Source: Chitinophagaceae bacterium (lineage in GTDB: Bacteria > Bacteroidota > Bacteroidia > Chitinophagales > Chitinophagaceae). Taken from it: 43,481 nt of DNA. Position 1 is the stretch's first letter; each line of letters begins with the position of its first letter. Where the stretch lies: contig JAHEMN010000012.1 of the NCBI GenBank assembly GCA_024643645.1, forward strand, positions 1 to 43,481. The letters run 5' to 3'. The translations under genes were made by a program, and so were the position numbers. The notes beneath the pieces are model-generated. The model saw only the letters and a list, made by a program, of their open reading frames with translations. It made no database searches and was not told the DNA's origin. Below, piece by piece: positions 34,038 through 42,376 of this stretch.

Positions 34038-35921
34038 CTATAAACTAACTACTAACACCGGAATATTTATTTCATGTCTTACAGCATCAATCGTTTGCCC
34101 AAATAACAGATCTCGAATTCCGCTATGACCATGGGCGCCTATAACAAGCATATCTGCATCATTTTCATTTATTATCCTTACTATCTCTTTCGCCCTGTAA
34201 TTAAACCCTAATACTCCTGTTGCTTCTATCCCTTTTTCTTTTAATTGTTGTACATAAAAATTTAACTGCTCATTATCCTTTCTTGTTTCGAGGTCGTCTG
34301 TTTCTTTTTCCATTAGTCGTGATGCAGCACTCTCAACAACATGTATCAATAAATAAGAAGAATTTTTATTGCCTTGTCCCAAAGCATATGAGATCAGCTT
34401 GCTGTCATTATTACTGAAGTCCAACGCAATGGCAATTTTTTTATAATCCGGAACAGCCATGTCACTCAGATCAGTTGCATCAGCATGTACTAATGATGCT
34501 TTTTTCTTTGTTTTATTTAATAAAGGATAGATCAGTGCTATAATTAATAATACCAAAAAGGAAATGGCCGCTATAATAATTACTGCTTTCCAAAACAGGC
34601 TGTCAGAGGTAGCAAAAAAAGATGATATCTCTTCCCATACCAGGCGAATATTTAAATAAACTAAAACTATTGTAATTATTGAAGCAAGAAAAATTATAAA
34701 TGGTTTGATAACAAATTTTCCCATCGTTTTTTTATCACTTGTAAAATGAATTAAAGGAATAATTGCAAAACCCAATTGCAGGCTGAGAATGACCTGGCTG
34801 AAAATTAACAGATCATCAATATTTTCTTCGCCATTGATCAAAATAACAATAACCGCAGGAACAATTGCAATTAACCTGGTCATTAAACGTCGCATCCATG
34901 GTGCAATACGAAGATTCAAATACCCTTCCATTACAATTTGTCCGGCCAGTGTACCTGTAATTGTAGAACTTTGGCCTGCCGCTATCAAAGCTACAGCAAA
35001 TAATATTGGAGCCAGTTCAGATCCTAACATTGGAGCCAGTAATTCATGAGCTTGTTTGATCTCTCCAACATCTGTTCGGCCAGTGTTAAAAAATACAGCT
35101 GCCGCTAAAACCAGAATTGCAGCATTTACAAAAAAGGCAAGATTCAGCGCAATGGCACTATCAATGAAATTTAATTTCAGCGCTTTTTTAATACCTGCAT
35201 CATCCCTTTTTATCTTTCTGGTTTGTACTAATGCTGAATGTAAATAAAGGTTATGTGGCATTACTGTGGCACCAATGATACCAATTGCAATATATAATGC
35301 AGTATTGTTTGGAATTGATGGTACAAATCCTTTTACTACTTCACCCATATCAGGTTTTGCTAAAATGATCTCTATCAAAAAGGAAATTCCAATTATAGCG
35401 ATAAGGGCAATTATGAAAGCTTCCATCTTTCGCATACCAAGCCGCTGTAGTAATAAAAATAAGAAGGTATCCAGCACCGTTATTAAAACGCCCCACAATA
35501 ATGGCATGCCTGTCAACAATTGAATACCTATTGCCATACCAAGGATTTCTGCAAGATCAGTAGCTGCAATTGCAATCTCAGCCAATCCGTATAATGCATA
35601 ATTAATATATCGGGGATATGTTTCCCTGTTTGCCTGCGCCAGGTCTCTTCCTCTTACTATTCCTAAACGGGCAGATAAACTTTGAAGTAATAAAGCCATC
35701 AGGTTACTCATCAGTAATACCCAGATAAGCTTATAGCCAAATTGGCTTCCACCGGCTAGATCGGTAGCCCAGTTTCCCGGATCCATATATCCAACACTAA
35801 CCAGGTAGGCAGGTCCAAAAAAGGAAAGTATTTTTCTAAATCCTTTTCTTTTTGTGCTGGTAGTATCTACACTCTGATGTACTTCACTGAGTGAAGCATA
35901 ATTATCTTTTTTATTTGGCAT
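34038..35921 (-). CDS. mntH: Nramp divalent metal transporter fused to a universal stress domain
   Basis: The 627-residue product has two parts. Residues 30-470 are an Nramp transporter with at least 11 helices: the DPGN metal motif at 47-50 and MPHN at 221-224 are both intact, so Mn(II)/Fe(II) uptake driven by protons is expected. Residues 492-627 are a UspA domain with strands KKIAIALDF and SYLLIHVVE and the G-x2-G nucleotide site at 595-601 (GAHGHSG), G608 being the next conserved glycine. A basic linker joins them. The start codon lies inside the end of mntR (11-base overlap), so the two are co-translated. The Usp part may sense ATP or stress and adjust transport (inference). Confidence 0.94.
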   Translation of the reverse strand: MPNKKDNYASLSEVHQSVDTTSTKRKGFRKILSFFGPAYLVSVGYMDPGNWATDLAGGSQFGYKLIWVLLMSNLMALLLQSLSARLGIVRGRDLAQANRETYPRYINYALYGLAEIAIAATDLAEILGMAIGIQLLTGMPLLWGVLITVLDTFLFLLLQRLGMRKMEAFIIALIAIIGISFLIEIILAKPDMGEVVKGFVPSIPNNTALYIAIGIIGATVMPHNLYLHSALVQTRKIKRDDAGIKKALKLNFIDSAIALNLAFFVNAAILVLAAAVFFNTGRTDVGEIKQAHELLAPMLGSELAPILFAVALIAAGQSSTITGTLAGQIVMEGYLNLRIAPWMRRLMTRLIAIVPAVIVILINGEENIDDLLIFSQVILSLQLGFAIIPLIHFTSDKKTMGKFVIKPFIIFLASIITIVLVYLNIRLVWEEISSFFATSDSLFWKAVIIIAAISFLVLLIIALIYPLLNKTKKKASLVHADATDLSDMAVPDYKKIAIALDFSNNDSKLISYALGQGNKNSSYLLIHVVESAASRLMEKETDDLETRKDNEQLNFYVQQLKEKGIEATGVLGFNYRAKEIVRIINENDADMLVIGAHGHSGIRDLLFGQTIDAVRHEINIPVLVVSL

Positions 35922-36576
35922 GGTCTACAAATATATTTTTCGCTAATTGTTCACTGATCGTAAATGCAGCTTGTCGTCCGATCTTTATTTCCATTGAATT
36001 ATCAAATTCAAATTTTTTATTTACTTCTATTTTCGTTCCAATGGTGATATTTCTGTGTTCAAGCAGTTCAAGTATTTCGCTGGATTGATCACTTATACTT
36101 GCAACAGTACCTGCGGTGTGTAAAGGCAACTCAGTGATATTAATTTTTTTACTTACCTCAATTTTTCCGTTTACATCAGGGATTGGATCTCCATGTGGGT
36201 CCACCCGGGGAAATCCGAGAAATTCATCTAACCTGTCAATTAATTTTTTATTACTAACATGTTCCAATTCTTCAGCAACTTCATGTACTTCATCCCAACT
36301 GAATTTTAATTTTTGTGCCAGAAAGAATTCCCATAGTCTGTGTCTTCTGATAATAGTAAGTGCAACTTTAGTACCATAGGCATTTAATCGAAACCCACGA
36401 TATGGTTGATAATTAAGAAGTTTTTTTGCCTTTAGCTTCTTCATCATGTCTGTGATGGAAGCTGGTTTTGTGTTTAATTCTTTAGCAAGTTCGTTGGTTG
36501 AAACTGTACCATCCGTTTTTTGTAAATGATAAATGGCCTTTAAATAGTTTTCCTCGCTAATAGAATAATTCAGCAT
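35911..36576 (-). CDS. mntR: DtxR/MntR-family metal-dependent regulator
   Basis: The 221-residue product represses metal-uptake genes when loaded with Mn(II) or Fe(II). The N-terminal winged helix is residues 5-60 (SEENYLKAIYHL, then STNELAKELNTKPASITDMMKKL). The dimerisation and metal-binding region follows (RRHRLWEFFLAQKLKFSWDEVHEVAEELEHV), with histidine and glutamate positions conserved. The C-terminus is an SH3-like FeoA domain (residues 150-215) with ITELPLHTAGTVASIS, so it is the long DtxR/IdeR/SirR form rather than the short B. subtilis MntR. It overlaps the transporter it probably controls, and its promoter carries a matching palindrome. Confidence 0.92.
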   Translation of the reverse strand: MLNYSISEENYLKAIYHLQKTDGTVSTNELAKELNTKPASITDMMKKLKAKKLLNYQPYRGFRLNAYGTKVALTIIRRHRLWEFFLAQKLKFSWDEVHEVAEELEHVSNKKLIDRLDEFLGFPRVDPHGDPIPDVNGKIEVSKKINITELPLHTAGTVASISDQSSEILELLEHRNITIGTKIEVNKKFEFDNSMEIKIGRQAAFTISEQLAKNIFVDHAK

Positions 36577-36679: not shown

Positions 36680-37642
36680 ATGAAGGGCTTTACAAAGTAT
36701 TTAATTCTTTTAGTAGCAATAATTTGCCAGGTTGGATGCAAGCAAAAAAAGCAAATCAGTTTGAAAGGTGAAGACCCAGTTGTCATTAATGAATTTATTG
36801 ATTTTTTCCCATCGTTGGATTTACCCGTTCAATTTTCTGATACGATATTTTCCAAATTAAAAAATGAAAATGATTCATTGTTGATCAGTAATAAAGTATT
36901 CACCCAATTTGTACCTGATTCTGTTTTAAGTAAAGTATATGGAAAAAATACAAAGCCAAAGATCTATGTACTTGGAAAAGTAATAGTACCAAAAGCAGAG
37001 ACTTACCTGTTTGTAAAAACGTTGAATAATAATAAAAGCGCTGTGTTCATACTTGCATTTGACAAGCAACAGCAATACATTTCTTCATTAGATGCACTCA
37101 TTACTGATAAGCAAGCTGCTACCGATCAATCTGTAATAATGGACAGAAGGTATACCATCACTAAGAAAGTATTACTGAAAAATTCTGATGGCTCATTGAG
37201 TGAGGGAAACGATGTTTATGTTTTGAATAACGATTCCAAAAGCTTTCTTTTAATTATGACTGAGGCTTTGGATGACAAGGTCACTGAGCTAATAAACCCA
37301 ATTGATACATTGCTTTCAAAAGGTAAATATGCAGGTGATTATAGCAAAGACAAAATGAACCTTGTTTCAATACGAGACAGTAGAAAGGAAGGGAAGATCA
37401 GTTTTTTTATTCATTTTGAATATAATAATGGTGACTGTACCGGTGAATTAAAAGGCGAAGCAACAATGAAAACAACAAACACTGCAGTATACCAGGTAGA
37501 TGGAGATCCCTGCCGTTTAAGTTTCATATTTTCTACATCTTCTGTAACATTAAAGGAACTGGAGGGATGTGGATCCAGAAGGGCATTAAATTGTTCTTTT
37601 GATGGAAATTTTAAAAAAAGGAAAGCCATTAAAATGAAATAA
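36680..37642 (+). CDS. Lipoprotein of unknown function
   Basis: The 320-residue product has a signal peptide and the lipobox QVGC (C21). The first part of the mature protein (about 25-130) has many short strands and charged turns, and the C-terminal 70 residues contain three cysteines in CTGELKGEAT, DPCRLSF and LEGCGSRR, possibly disulfide-bonded. No family is recognised. It is divergent from mntR and its promoter region shares the metal-regulator palindrome, so metal-responsive expression is possible. A -7-like TATTTTTG is at 36641-36648 with no clear -33. The next gene, the GT35-like protein, starts 120 bp downstream. Confidence 0.8.
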   Translation: MKGFTKYLILLVAIICQVGCKQKKQISLKGEDPVVINEFIDFFPSLDLPVQFSDTIFSKLKNENDSLLISNKVFTQFVPDSVLSKVYGKNTKPKIYVLGKVIVPKAETYLFVKTLNNNKSAVFILAFDKQQQYISSLDALITDKQAATDQSVIMDRRYTITKKVLLKNSDGSLSEGNDVYVLNNDSKSFLLIMTEALDDKVTELINPIDTLLSKGKYAGDYSKDKMNLVSIRDSRKEGKISFFIHFEYNNGDCTGELKGEATMKTTNTAVYQVDGDPCRLSFIFSTSSVTLKELEGCGSRRALNCSFDGNFKKRKAIKMK

Positions 37643-37761: not shown

Positions 37762-39417
37762 ATGAATTTTACAAAATTTTCAGTTCCCTATCAAGTTGAA
37801 GAGAGTTATAAAAAAAGAGTAGCGTATTTTTCAATGGAATTTGCCACTCACCAGCCCTTAAAAATATATAGTGGTGGATTAGGTTTTTTAGCAGGTTCAC
37901 ACTTACGTAGTGCATACGAGTTAAAGCAAAATCTTATTGGTATTGGCATATTATGGAAGTACGGTTATTACGATCAGGAGCGAAACCAGGATCAGACCTT
38001 AGATGTAACCTGGAATGAAAAACAGTATAGTTTTCTGGAAGATACGGGGATCAAGTTTCAGATAAATATCCATGAACATCCTGTTTGGGTAAAAGTATAT
38101 TACCTAAATCCTGAAACATTCAAGACAGCACCGCTGTTTTTATTATCTACAGATGTACAAGAGAATGATTATGTATCTCAAACCATCACTCACAGATTGT
38201 ATGATGCCAATGTTGCAACTAAAGTGGCACAGTTCATTTTATTAGGTGTTGGTGGTGCAAAACTGATAGATTTGCTAGGTTTTAACCCGGAGTTATATCA
38301 TTTAAATGAAGCACACGGTTTATCAGCTGCATTTTATCTATATAAGAAATTTAATAATAATATTGAAGAAGTTAGAAAACGTTTAGTTTTTACTACTCAT
38401 ACCCCTGAGGAAGCTGGGAATGAAAAGCATGACATATTTCTTTGTCATAAAATGAGTTATTTCTGCGGTCTTACAGTGGATGAAGTGAAACAACTTACAC
38501 GGATGCCCGAAAATCAGTTCAACCATTCTTTAGCTGCTTTACGATTCGCACATCTTGCAAACGGAGTATCTCAGTTACATGGTAAAGTCTCCAGAAGTAT
38601 GTGGAGTAAGTATACTGATATCTGTGAGATCATTTCAATTACAAATGCACAGAACTGGAAATACTGGGCAGATAAACAATTGTATAAGTTCAAAGAGGCT
38701 GGAGATGATTATGGTATTGATGATCGTAAAAAATATTTGAAGAAGAGAGCTTTTGAAATAGTGGCTGATCAAACAGGTAAAATTTTCAATCCGGATGTAT
38801 TTACGATAGTATGGGCAAGGCGTTTTGCAGGATATAAAAGAGCCGGGCTAATAACAACGGCAGAAGAAAGATTTGCAAAACTAATTAGCAATACAAAATA
38901 TCCGGTACAAATAATATGGGCAGGAAAACCTTATCCTGTTGATCATCCTGCTATAAGCGAGTTCAATCAATTGGTGCATCTTAGTAAGCAGTATAAAAAT
39001 GTTGCAGTGTTGATCGGTTATGAACTGACCTTATCTAAAAGAATGAAACAGGCTGCAGATTGCTGGTTGAATAATCCAAGAGTACCCAGAGAGGCATCCG
39101 GAACCAGTGGTATGACAGCATCTATGAATGGGGCAGTTAATTTTTCTACTGATGATGGATGGATACCGGAATTTATCAATCATGGTCATAATGGATTTGT
39201 AGTGCCAATAACAGACTATGAGAATATGGCGGTACATGAGCAGGATGAATACGATCTGAATAAACTTTATGAGATCCTGGAAAATGAAATATTGCCATTA
39301 TACTATGATAATTATTCAACCTGGCGTCAAATCATGAAAAATGGAATGTCGGATGTTCGCTTCCAGTTTGACAGTAACAGGATGGCGCATGAATATTATA
39401 CGTTATTGTATAAGTAA
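37762..39417 (+). CDS. Short-form alpha-glucan phosphorylase-like protein (GT35) lacking the PLP lysine
   Basis: At 551 residues this is the short (AgpA/MalP-like) form of glucan phosphorylase, which normally releases glucose 1-phosphate from alpha-1,4-glucans using PLP. Family segments are kept: YFSMEFATHQPLKIYSGGLGFLAG (residues 22-45), HLNEAHG (180-186), TTHTPEEAG (211-219), WARRFAGYKR (351-360), IWAGKPYPVD (385-394) and EASGTSGM (444-451). But the residue after that methionine, which is the PLP-bound lysine in the family (SGMKA), is T452 (codon ACA at 39115-39117). The ENY/EDY before the CWLNNPR block is IGY. It therefore may be a non-phosphorolytic enzyme or a binding protein. A strong terminator follows. 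Confidence 0.88.
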   Translation: MNFTKFSVPYQVEESYKKRVAYFSMEFATHQPLKIYSGGLGFLAGSHLRSAYELKQNLIGIGILWKYGYYDQERNQDQTLDVTWNEKQYSFLEDTGIKFQINIHEHPVWVKVYYLNPETFKTAPLFLLSTDVQENDYVSQTITHRLYDANVATKVAQFILLGVGGAKLIDLLGFNPELYHLNEAHGLSAAFYLYKKFNNNIEEVRKRLVFTTHTPEEAGNEKHDIFLCHKMSYFCGLTVDEVKQLTRMPENQFNHSLAALRFAHLANGVSQLHGKVSRSMWSKYTDICEIISITNAQNWKYWADKQLYKFKEAGDDYGIDDRKKYLKKRAFEIVADQTGKIFNPDVFTIVWARRFAGYKRAGLITTAEERFAKLISNTKYPVQIIWAGKPYPVDHPAISEFNQLVHLSKQYKNVAVLIGYELTLSKRMKQAADCWLNNPRVPREASGTSGMTASMNGAVNFSTDDGWIPEFINHGHNGFVVPITDYENMAVHEQDEYDLNKLYEILENEILPLYYDNYSTWRQIMKNGMSDVRFQFDSNRMAHEYYTLLYK

Positions 39418-40984: not shown

Positions 40985-42376
40985 ATGCGATTTCCTTTCC
41001 TTGCCATTTTTTCTTTTTTTATACTATTTGCTTCATGCAAGCTCATGAAAAAAGAAGAAGAAAAAATTGTAAAAAACAATAATAGCAGTATGATCAATAG
41101 ATTTATTCCGGTAGAGTGGGCACATAACACCAATATTTACGAAGTGAACCTTAGGCAATATACTGATGAAGGGACATTTGTTGCCTTTGCACAAAATTTA
41201 TCCCGGTTAAAGGAAATGGGTATAAAGACTCTTTGGTTCATGCCAATAACACCGATCTCTCAAAAAAACAAAAAGGGTTCATTAGGAAGTTATTATGCCT
41301 GTTCTGATTATACATCTGTAAATCCTGAATTTGGAACCTTAGAAGATTTTAAAAATCTTGTAAAGAAGGCTCATGAAATGGGTTTTAAAGTAATTCTTGA
41401 CTGGGTAGCAAATCATACTGGCTGGGATCATAAATGGACGACAGCACACCCTGATTATTATTTAATGGATACTGCCACAAAAGATTTTAAAATGGCGAGT
41501 GGTATGGAGGATATCATTGAGCTGGATTTTAAAAACCCTGCTATGAGAAGAGAGATGATCGAAGCAATGCAATTCTGGGTAAAGGAAACTGATATTGATG
41601 GATTTCGTTGTGATCTTGCTTTTTGGGTAGAATTGGATTTTTGGAAAGAAGCAAGAAAAGAATTAGACGTTACTAAACCACTTCTTTGGTTAGGTGAATT
41701 TGATGAATTGGAAAGACCAGAGTATGGTGATGCTTTTGATGCCAGCTATACCTGGACATGGATGCATAAGACAAAAGAATTTTATGAAAAGCAACTGCCA
41801 TTGGATTCATTATTGACTGTATTAAAGAAATATGATGACCTGGGAGATAGTACTATGAGGGCCTGGTTTACTACCAATCATGATGAGAACAGCTGGAATG
41901 GTACAGAGTACGAAAAATATGGGGATATGGCGAAGGCATTAGCTGTGTTTAGTTGCACATGGAATGGTATTCCACTTTTATATTCAGGTCAGGAATTGCC
42001 TAACCTTAAGCGAATAGAGTTTTTTGATAAAGATCCTATTAAATGGAAGGGTAAAAATGAATTGGAGGGATTTTATAAAACTTTATTACAGCTGCATAGT
42101 GATAATCCGGCATTAAGAAGTGGAGATGCAACGGTTCAGACATTTCGGATTAAAACCAGTGAACCTGAAAATGTATTTGCATTCTTAAGGAAAAAAGGAG
42201 AACGGGAAGTATTAGTGCTGCTTAATCTATCTTCTCAAAATGAATTGCAATTTGATCTGCTTGATGCTATAGTTTCTGGAATTTTTAAAAATATATTTTC
42301 CGGTGTTAGTAATGATTTTACAAAAGAAAAGAGTGTACAAATGAAAGCCTGGGATTATTTAGTGTTTGAAAAATAA
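40985..42376 (+). CDS. Alpha-amylase family lipoprotein (GH13)
   Basis: Starting at the ATG at 40985 the product is 463 residues; the frame is open further upstream but overlaps ispH and lacks coding character there. A signal peptide with lipobox LFASC (C18) anchors it as a lipoprotein. The GH13 barrel has DWVANHTG (139-146), GFRCD with nucleophile D210, GEFDE with acid/base E238 and TTNHDEN with D300, so the catalytic triad is intact. A C-terminal beta-domain follows from about residue 380. It should cut alpha-glucans outside the cytoplasm. ispH is divergent on the other side of a 90-bp gap; the GT35-like gene is the nearest other glucan gene. Confidence 0.92.
   Translation: MRFPFLAIFSFFILFASCKLMKKEEEKIVKNNNSSMINRFIPVEWAHNTNIYEVNLRQYTDEGTFVAFAQNLSRLKEMGIKTLWFMPITPISQKNKKGSLGSYYACSDYTSVNPEFGTLEDFKNLVKKAHEMGFKVILDWVANHTGWDHKWTTAHPDYYLMDTATKDFKMASGMEDIIELDFKNPAMRREMIEAMQFWVKETDIDGFRCDLAFWVELDFWKEARKELDVTKPLLWLGEFDELERPEYGDAFDASYTWTWMHKTKEFYEKQLPLDSLLTVLKKYDDLGDSTMRAWFTTNHDENSWNGTEYEKYGDMAKALAVFSCTWNGIPLLYSGQELPNLKRIEFFDKDPIKWKGKNELEGFYKTLLQLHSDNPALRSGDATVQTFRIKTSEPENVFAFLRKKGEREVLVLLNLSSQNELQFDLLDAIVSGIFKNIFSGVSNDFTKEKSVQMKAWDYLVFEK

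Follow-up and report, generated by a model that had tools for sequence, protein, structure and literature searches.

In GlgP enzymes the lysine that carries pyridoxal 5′-phosphate (PLP) has been called invariant and activity has been called absolutely PLP dependent, and it is the 5′-phosphate of PLP, not the Schiff base, that is described as taking part in catalysis (PMC2837607). One review has all phosphorylases carrying PLP and names a single archaeal exception (PMC12267944), the glycogen phosphorylase of Methanococcus maripaludis, which is stated to need no PLP (Gonzalez-Ordenes et al. 2024, cited in PMC12267944). In potato Pho1, glucose is described as contacted by Asn561, Arg647, Tyr651, Glu754, Ala755, Ser756 and Gly757, and PLP is carried on Lys762 (PMC11465516). 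Short-form alpha-glucan phosphorylases include the Segatella copri glycogen phosphorylase (PDB 9l6i) and the plasmid glgP products of Indioceanicola and Criblamydia, the latter two being approximately 560 amino acids long. The proteins described here, short GT35 homologues without the PLP lysine that we call T-type, resemble these short-form enzymes in predicted fold, in sugar-site residues, in the EASGTSG motif and partly in gene neighbors, but they differ in having T, S or A for K and in changes at positions 350, 351, 390, 391, 419 and 421. The M. maripaludis enzyme, reported to be active without PLP, is archaeal, and it was compared by description only. No description of a lysine-less GT35 clade in Bacteroidota was recognized among the listed titles and abstract openings, which came from open-licence PMC papers only.

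The gene under study lies in the window, by which we mean the whole stretch of DNA that was analyzed (43,481 nucleotides), and was identified by profile searches and predicted structure.

37762..39417, + strand: short GT35/TIGR02094 homologue without the PLP lysine (T-type), 551 amino acids
39091..39117, + strand: EASGTSGM followed by T452, the PLP-lysine motif with Thr for Lys; codon ACA at 39115-39117

Translation of positions 39040-39190 gave ...CWLNNPRVPREASGTSGMTASMNGAVNFSTDDGW..., in which residue 452 is Thr; the first-pass annotation had described this substitution and placed it correctly. The window protein scored 433.3 bits against TIGR02094, above the cut-off of 191.7, and 55.6 bits against PF00343, for which the cut-off is 27. 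By these profile scores the protein is a member of the GT35 sequence family. An AF2 model built with 39 sequences reached a pLDDT of 86 and a pTM of 0.85, and its best PDB match was S. copri glycogen phosphorylase 9l6i, with a TM of 0.87 by model length and 28% identity. A GT35 fold is predicted for the window protein, the model being weakest at loops (pLDDT below 50 at 29-41 and 441-446). Because T452 occupies the place of the invariant Schiff-base lysine that marks PLP-dependent alpha-glucan phosphorylases (EC 2.4.1.1), the window protein was not classed as one of these enzymes. The window assembly (3.4 Mb, 245 contigs) holds a second GT35 copy (G000:C58:7603-9231) that is 57% identical and has Ala at the position equivalent to 452, and searches with TIGR02094 and PF00343 returned these two lysine-less copies and no lysine-bearing GT35 protein from an assembly that is 94.5% complete.

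Residue 452 was compared across relatives, of which the 80 GTDB loci and the 42 carrier loci below were picked by similarity. Among the best 80 of 584 GTDB relatives, which were mostly Chitinophagaceae and other Bacteroidota and included three Algoriphagus, position 452 was T in 78 and S in 2; 6 of these 80 loci are also among the other loci counted. A draw of 394 genomes from the phylum gave some match in 279 and a match of the 53 to 100% identical kind in 42, hereafter the carriers, with T in 40 and S in 2 (42 loci, one per genome). A search of 38 relatives gave a match in 27 and supplied loci L003 to L027, of which 24 of 25 had Thr and the other, L022, ends before the motif; the count excludes two fragments (L028 and L029) and a canonical GlgP (L030). 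Both plasmid copies, from Pontibacter and Runella, also had Thr. More distant relatives, here K-type, consisted of 10 proteins of the same phylum and 12 of 29 plasmid matches (28 to 33% identity), and all 22 had Lys, 21 of 21 in the alignment plus a Tsukamurella protein that the motif pattern did not catch and in which Lys was read separately. The substitution is therefore not an isolated oddity, the clade members examined having Thr, Ser or Ala and the more distant relatives Lys. Moreover, the codon varied among ACA, ACG and ACT in eight compared sequences (six distinct) and always encoded Thr. An error at 39116, which the first-pass annotation had raised as a way in which its observation could fail, is excluded by the Thr of relatives together with the synonymous codon variation.

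A few observations concern the distribution of the genes. Three T-type loci labelled Sphingomonadales or Beijerinckiaceae (L118, L121 and L160) carry a gene 76 to 85% identical to the Chitinophagaceae one and probably represent mislabelled or mixed metagenome-assembled genomes (MAGs). One scan of viral contigs found no viral carrier of a T-type gene. One contig (G185:C64) carries two K-type short GT35 genes, L089 and L091, approximately 20 kb apart.

Because it was the motif that decided which rows of our alignment tables counted as T-type and which as K-type, with L022 and an N-terminal piece of L020 left out, the T, S or A that replaces K in 73/73 rows lacking K is no proof of a split between the types, and the split is given by the tree. 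When 53 rows were placed in a midpoint-rooted tree (quick search without bootstrap, motif column kept), a single branch with SH-aLRT 100 separated 32 T-types from all 21 K rows; the T-types were 30 chosen by hand for spread from 71 alignment rows plus the two plasmid copies. The T-type clade stood on a long stem separate from the short-form K-type phosphorylases. One loss of the lysine would be the simple reading of this topology, not a rooted proof. T-type proteins form one old Bacteroidota clade of short GT35 proteins, which appears to replace the ordinary alpha-glucan phosphorylase since its loss of the PLP lysine.

The window gene was also compared with eight sequences (six distinct), comprising five distinct same-genus loci and L110, from a Chitinophagaceae MAG; L008 was dropped as it had no 551-codon frame. 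Synonymous differences far exceeded amino acid changes, with pS between 0.67 and 0.86 and pN between 0.05 and 0.09, and a dN/dS of 0.03 was obtained from the sole pair with unsaturated dS, all other pairs being saturated. We conclude that purifying selection acts on the window gene. A decayed gene was rejected for the window copy on the excess of synonymous changes, and the earlier view that the gene is not decayed holds for a full-length frame of 551 codons with a predicted GT35 fold. Apparent losses were seen in two other same-genus genomes, one with just two short gene fragments (L028, G003:C1:319994-320160) and one with an in-frame stop inside the gene (L020, G011).

Six further segments of the window gene contain residues shared with K-type proteins, residues that are replaced, or both.

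37873..37884, + strand: glycine loop G38-G39-L40-G41, conserved in T-type and K-type
38398..38421, + strand: H213 to N220, with the His kept; E216 (67/71) and N220 (72/73) where K-type proteins mostly have Val and His
38644..38667, + strand: N295 to W302, both 73/73; A296 (65/73) and N298 (57/73) where K-type proteins have Gly and His
38803..38841, + strand: T348-R360 plus one residue before; R354, Y358 and K359 kept, V350 and W351 changed
38920..38940, + strand: A387-G388-K389-P390-Y391-P392; P390 and Y391 where K-type proteins have Ala/Ser and His
39013..39024, + strand: I418-G419-Y420-E421; Y420 in 72/73, G419 and E421 where K-type proteins have N/D and D/N

Equivalents of the potato Pho1 contacts were assigned from an alignment with canonical GlgP (L030) and from equal spacing. 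The glucose contacts correspond to N295, R354, Y358, E444, A445, S446 and G447 of the window protein, and Lys762 corresponds to T452; among 73 T-type rows each of the seven contact residues was retained in 72 or 73. K359 and W302 were present in 73/73 T-type rows, H213 in 72/73 and R353 in 69/73, and we take R353, R354 and K359 to be the phosphate-holding residues, after glycogen phosphorylase structures. T-type proteins thus have the sugar-site residues of an alpha-glucan phosphorylase, and these persist even in relatives just 53% identical to the window protein.

The residues beside the missing lysine have changed. Position 350 is V in T-type proteins, Gly in K-type proteins (10/10 of the same phylum) and Ala in two K-type plasmid rows; the Phe of K-type proteins at 351 is W in 68/73 T-type rows; A or S at 390 is P, and H391 is Y in 71/73 T-type rows. 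At position 419, Gly was found in 70/71 T-type rows and Asn or Asp in 10/10 K-type rows, and at 421 Glu was found in 73/73 T-type rows and D or N in K-type rows. The first-pass annotation had remarked on IGY ahead of the CWLNNPR block, and I418-G419-Y420 is indeed there, the Gly being a feature of the clade. Judging from their nearness to motif residues, the changed residues 350, 351, 390, 391, 419 and 421 would touch the cofactor, and as they changed together, PLP may no longer fit.

To place the gene in the context of glycogen metabolism, 42 carriers were compared with 20 non-carriers that were the nearest kin and not a random draw, 95 more being left out. Canonical GlgP (TIGR02093, E 1e-20) was found in 0 of these 62 genomes. 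No lysine-bearing GT35 relative was found in the 42 carriers, in some of which only three candidates were scored, and five of the 42 had two T-type matches. T-type and canonical GlgP do occur together in one genome outside the 62 (G024, L023 and L030). GlgC was present in 30/42 carriers and 11/20 non-carriers, a difference not significant alone (p 0.25); GT3 was present in 9/42 and 0/20 (p 0.047), GlgE in 9/42 and 2/20, and GlgB above cut-off in 36/42 and 13/20. At least one of GlgC, GT3 and GlgE was found in 39/42 carriers compared with 12/20 non-carriers (Fisher p 0.003, uncorrected for kinship). Two genomes, G167 and G171, have GT5 proteins over 500 amino acids long without GlgC; G167 was counted by its GlgE, and adding G171 would raise the non-carriers to 13/20. 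As at least 11 of the 20 non-carriers have GlgC and no GT35 match, a phosphorylase is not obligatory.

An alpha-glucan route through GlgC (30) or GT3 (9) was present in 39/42 carriers, and in the window genome one contig (C112) encodes GlgC and GlgB together with a 494-residue GT5 protein. The idea that T-type proteins supply a synthase where alpha-glucan synthesis is absent was thus rejected in 39/42 carriers. The other three (G113, G148 and G231, all of one genus code, g41) lack that route, being without GlgC, GT3, GlgE or GlgB above cut-off, and their signs of GT5 amount to one protein of half length and one match at 65 bits, with nothing further. A GT5 match of some kind occurred in 62/62 genomes, in many of them as a short frame like one on contig C112 (L039, G000:C112:6006-6686), which with its equivalents is approximately 270 amino acids long and matches the N-domain of GT5 glycogen synthase alone. 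One review notes that a GlgA-GT5 fragment is conserved in Bacteroidetes.

Gene neighborhoods were compared across 109 partly overlapping loci, 108 of them with the gene recognized and one (L086) K-type. Around the window gene the following features were considered.

36680..37642, + strand: lipoprotein-like protein without a Pfam or NCBIfam match, upstream neighbor; family in 58/109 loci
40988..42376, + strand: GH13 alpha-amylase with a lipoprotein-like N terminus, linked alpha-glucan gene; family in 18/109 loci
34041-35921, − strand: Nramp-type metal transporter with a universal-stress (Usp) domain at its C terminus, a fusion protein; family in 56/109 loci
35914-36576: DtxR-type regulator beside the Nramp-Usp gene

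The lipoprotein-like family lay at −1 on the same strand as the GT35 gene in 51 cases. A conserved operon that would name the substrate was sought and rejected, the frequent neighbors of the window gene being the lipoprotein, the Nramp-Usp transporter and the DtxR-like regulator. We conclude that the neighbors of the window gene are not informative apart from the GH13 amylase family.

Catabolic neighbors were found in other T-type subclades, not at the window gene. A phosphoketolase gene adjoined the T-type gene or lay one gene away in 3/109 loci (L079 to L081, family code f18), together with Usp-like genes, and L081 also had acetate kinase; the NCBIfam assignments of phosphoketolase and AckA come from L081 alone, and phosphoketolase in L079 and L080 was assigned by clustering. 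The second copy in the window genome sits between Usp and Hsp20 genes, that Usp being identified by Pfam and other Usp-like genes by clustering. On the Pontibacter plasmid, type II GAPDH and DUF1622 genes directly precede the T-type gene, whereas the Runella plasmid has neither. A gene of the pyridoxamine 5′-phosphate oxidase family (L209:8639-9079) follows the Runella T-type glgP by approximately 30 bases, from which no link to PLP is implied. For comparison, phosphoketolase, type II GAPDH or DUF1622 was found in 5/12 K-type plasmid regions (Criblamydia, Indioceanicola, Pseudorhizobium, Methylophaga and Chroococcidiopsis) and was absent from 7/12, within flanks of 3 to 7 kb.

Given an intact sugar site, the catabolic neighbors that some subclades have and the failure to find a lysine-bearing relative in the 42 carriers, we prefer the reading that T-type proteins are active alpha-glucan phosphorylases working without lysine-linked PLP, to which, arguing from sequence, we assign a probability of just under one half (about 0.48). 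Because the 5′-phosphate of PLP and not the Schiff base is catalytic, phosphorolysis could survive when only the lysine is lost, and the M. maripaludis enzyme, as reported, provides a precedent for a phosphorylase that needs no PLP. Using inorganic phosphate, the protein would cleave the terminal glucose from glycogen or maltodextrin and release it as glucose 1-phosphate. The acid/base work of the PLP 5′-phosphate would then be done either by PLP held non-covalently or by another phosphate group in the space bounded by the glycine loops, R354 and K359; that group could be a further phosphate ion or belong to a phosphorylated metabolite. If so, glycogen breakdown in carriers may not depend on covalent attachment of the B6 cofactor, and T-type proteins could explain glycogen turnover in genomes that have a synthesis route and no lysine-bearing phosphorylase. 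The wider proposition, that in this clade glycogen phosphorylase permanently discarded PLP through lysine loss and pocket remodelling to give either a cofactor-free phosphorylase or an NDP-sugar transferase, stands at even odds. A bacterial clade without the PLP lysine is a natural experiment on the purpose of the cofactor. Moreover, T-type genes are annotated as ordinary glgP, and both the automatic annotation and the assumed need for vitamin B6 may mislead in many Bacteroidota.

The first-pass annotation had suggested a phosphate-independent glycosyltransferase. The wording “phosphate-independent” finds no support, since the retained sugar site with R354 and K359, the absence of a lysine-bearing relative from the 42 carriers and the glgP-like neighbors of some members point to a phosphorylase-like role. 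The glycosyltransferase part survives as the main rival to phosphorolysis, in the form of a reversion to an NDP-sugar enzyme in which a sugar nucleotide would occupy the former phosphate site as in GT4 and GT5, either extending an alpha-glucan or making another glucoside. GT4, GT5 and GT35 share the GT-B fold, and T-type proteins have a weak profile similarity to the retaining GT4 and GT5 transferases, glycogen synthase among them. In single-sequence Pfam scans at E 0.05, PF08323 (GT5) matched 10/17 T-types and 2/22 K-types (Fisher p 0.001), and PF00534 (GT4) matched 9/17 and 0/22 (Fisher p 0.0001), p values that are optimistic as the rows are related. The best PF08323 match among T-types had an E value of 8.9e-07, and TIGR02095 (glycogen synthase) matched at E 1e-6 or better in 2/2 T-types (46.0 and 43.4 bits) and 1/5 K-types (L086, 40.8 bits), a difference that favors the transferase. 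The window protein itself stays below the Pfam cut-offs (18.9 versus 22.7 bits for PF08323 and 18.7 versus 26.4 bits for PF00534), while L070 lies just above the former at 22.9 bits and at least one other T-type must do so by its E value; the match to TIGR02094 is far stronger, at 433 bits. We read these matches as a probable drift toward the GT4/GT5 pattern, which does not in itself show use of NDP-sugars. The coordinated change beside the cofactor site and the three g41 carriers without GlgC, GT3, GlgE or GlgB above cut-off are consistent with a transferase, but GlgC or GT3 is already present in 39/42 carriers and the neighbors, where informative, are catabolic. Furthermore, EX7E-type NDP-sugar enzymes have a ribose-binding Glu at the position equivalent to 452, and T-type proteins have T, S or A there and so lack the second Glu of the motif, although E444 is present. 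We regard reversion to an NDP-sugar transferase as the less likely reading, at rather better than one chance in four.

A second suggestion was that the protein is a glucan-binding regulator, and a pseudoenzyme that binds glucan or phosphate without catalysis could accommodate the absence of the lysine that is said to be invariant in GlgP (PMC2837607). The clade accepts T, S or A at position 452, which argues that this position itself is not catalytic and would also suit such a protein. That the sugar-site residues persist in sequences just 53% identical to the window protein, however, disfavors a regulator, as does the failure to find a lysine-bearing partner in the 42 carriers, and we consider a pseudoenzyme improbable. 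Least probable is a continued covalent attachment of PLP to a different lysine close by, such as K429 or K323, since both lie outside the cofactor motif, within which no replacement lysine stands, although each of the two is Lys in 73/73 T-type rows and in 0/21 K-type rows.
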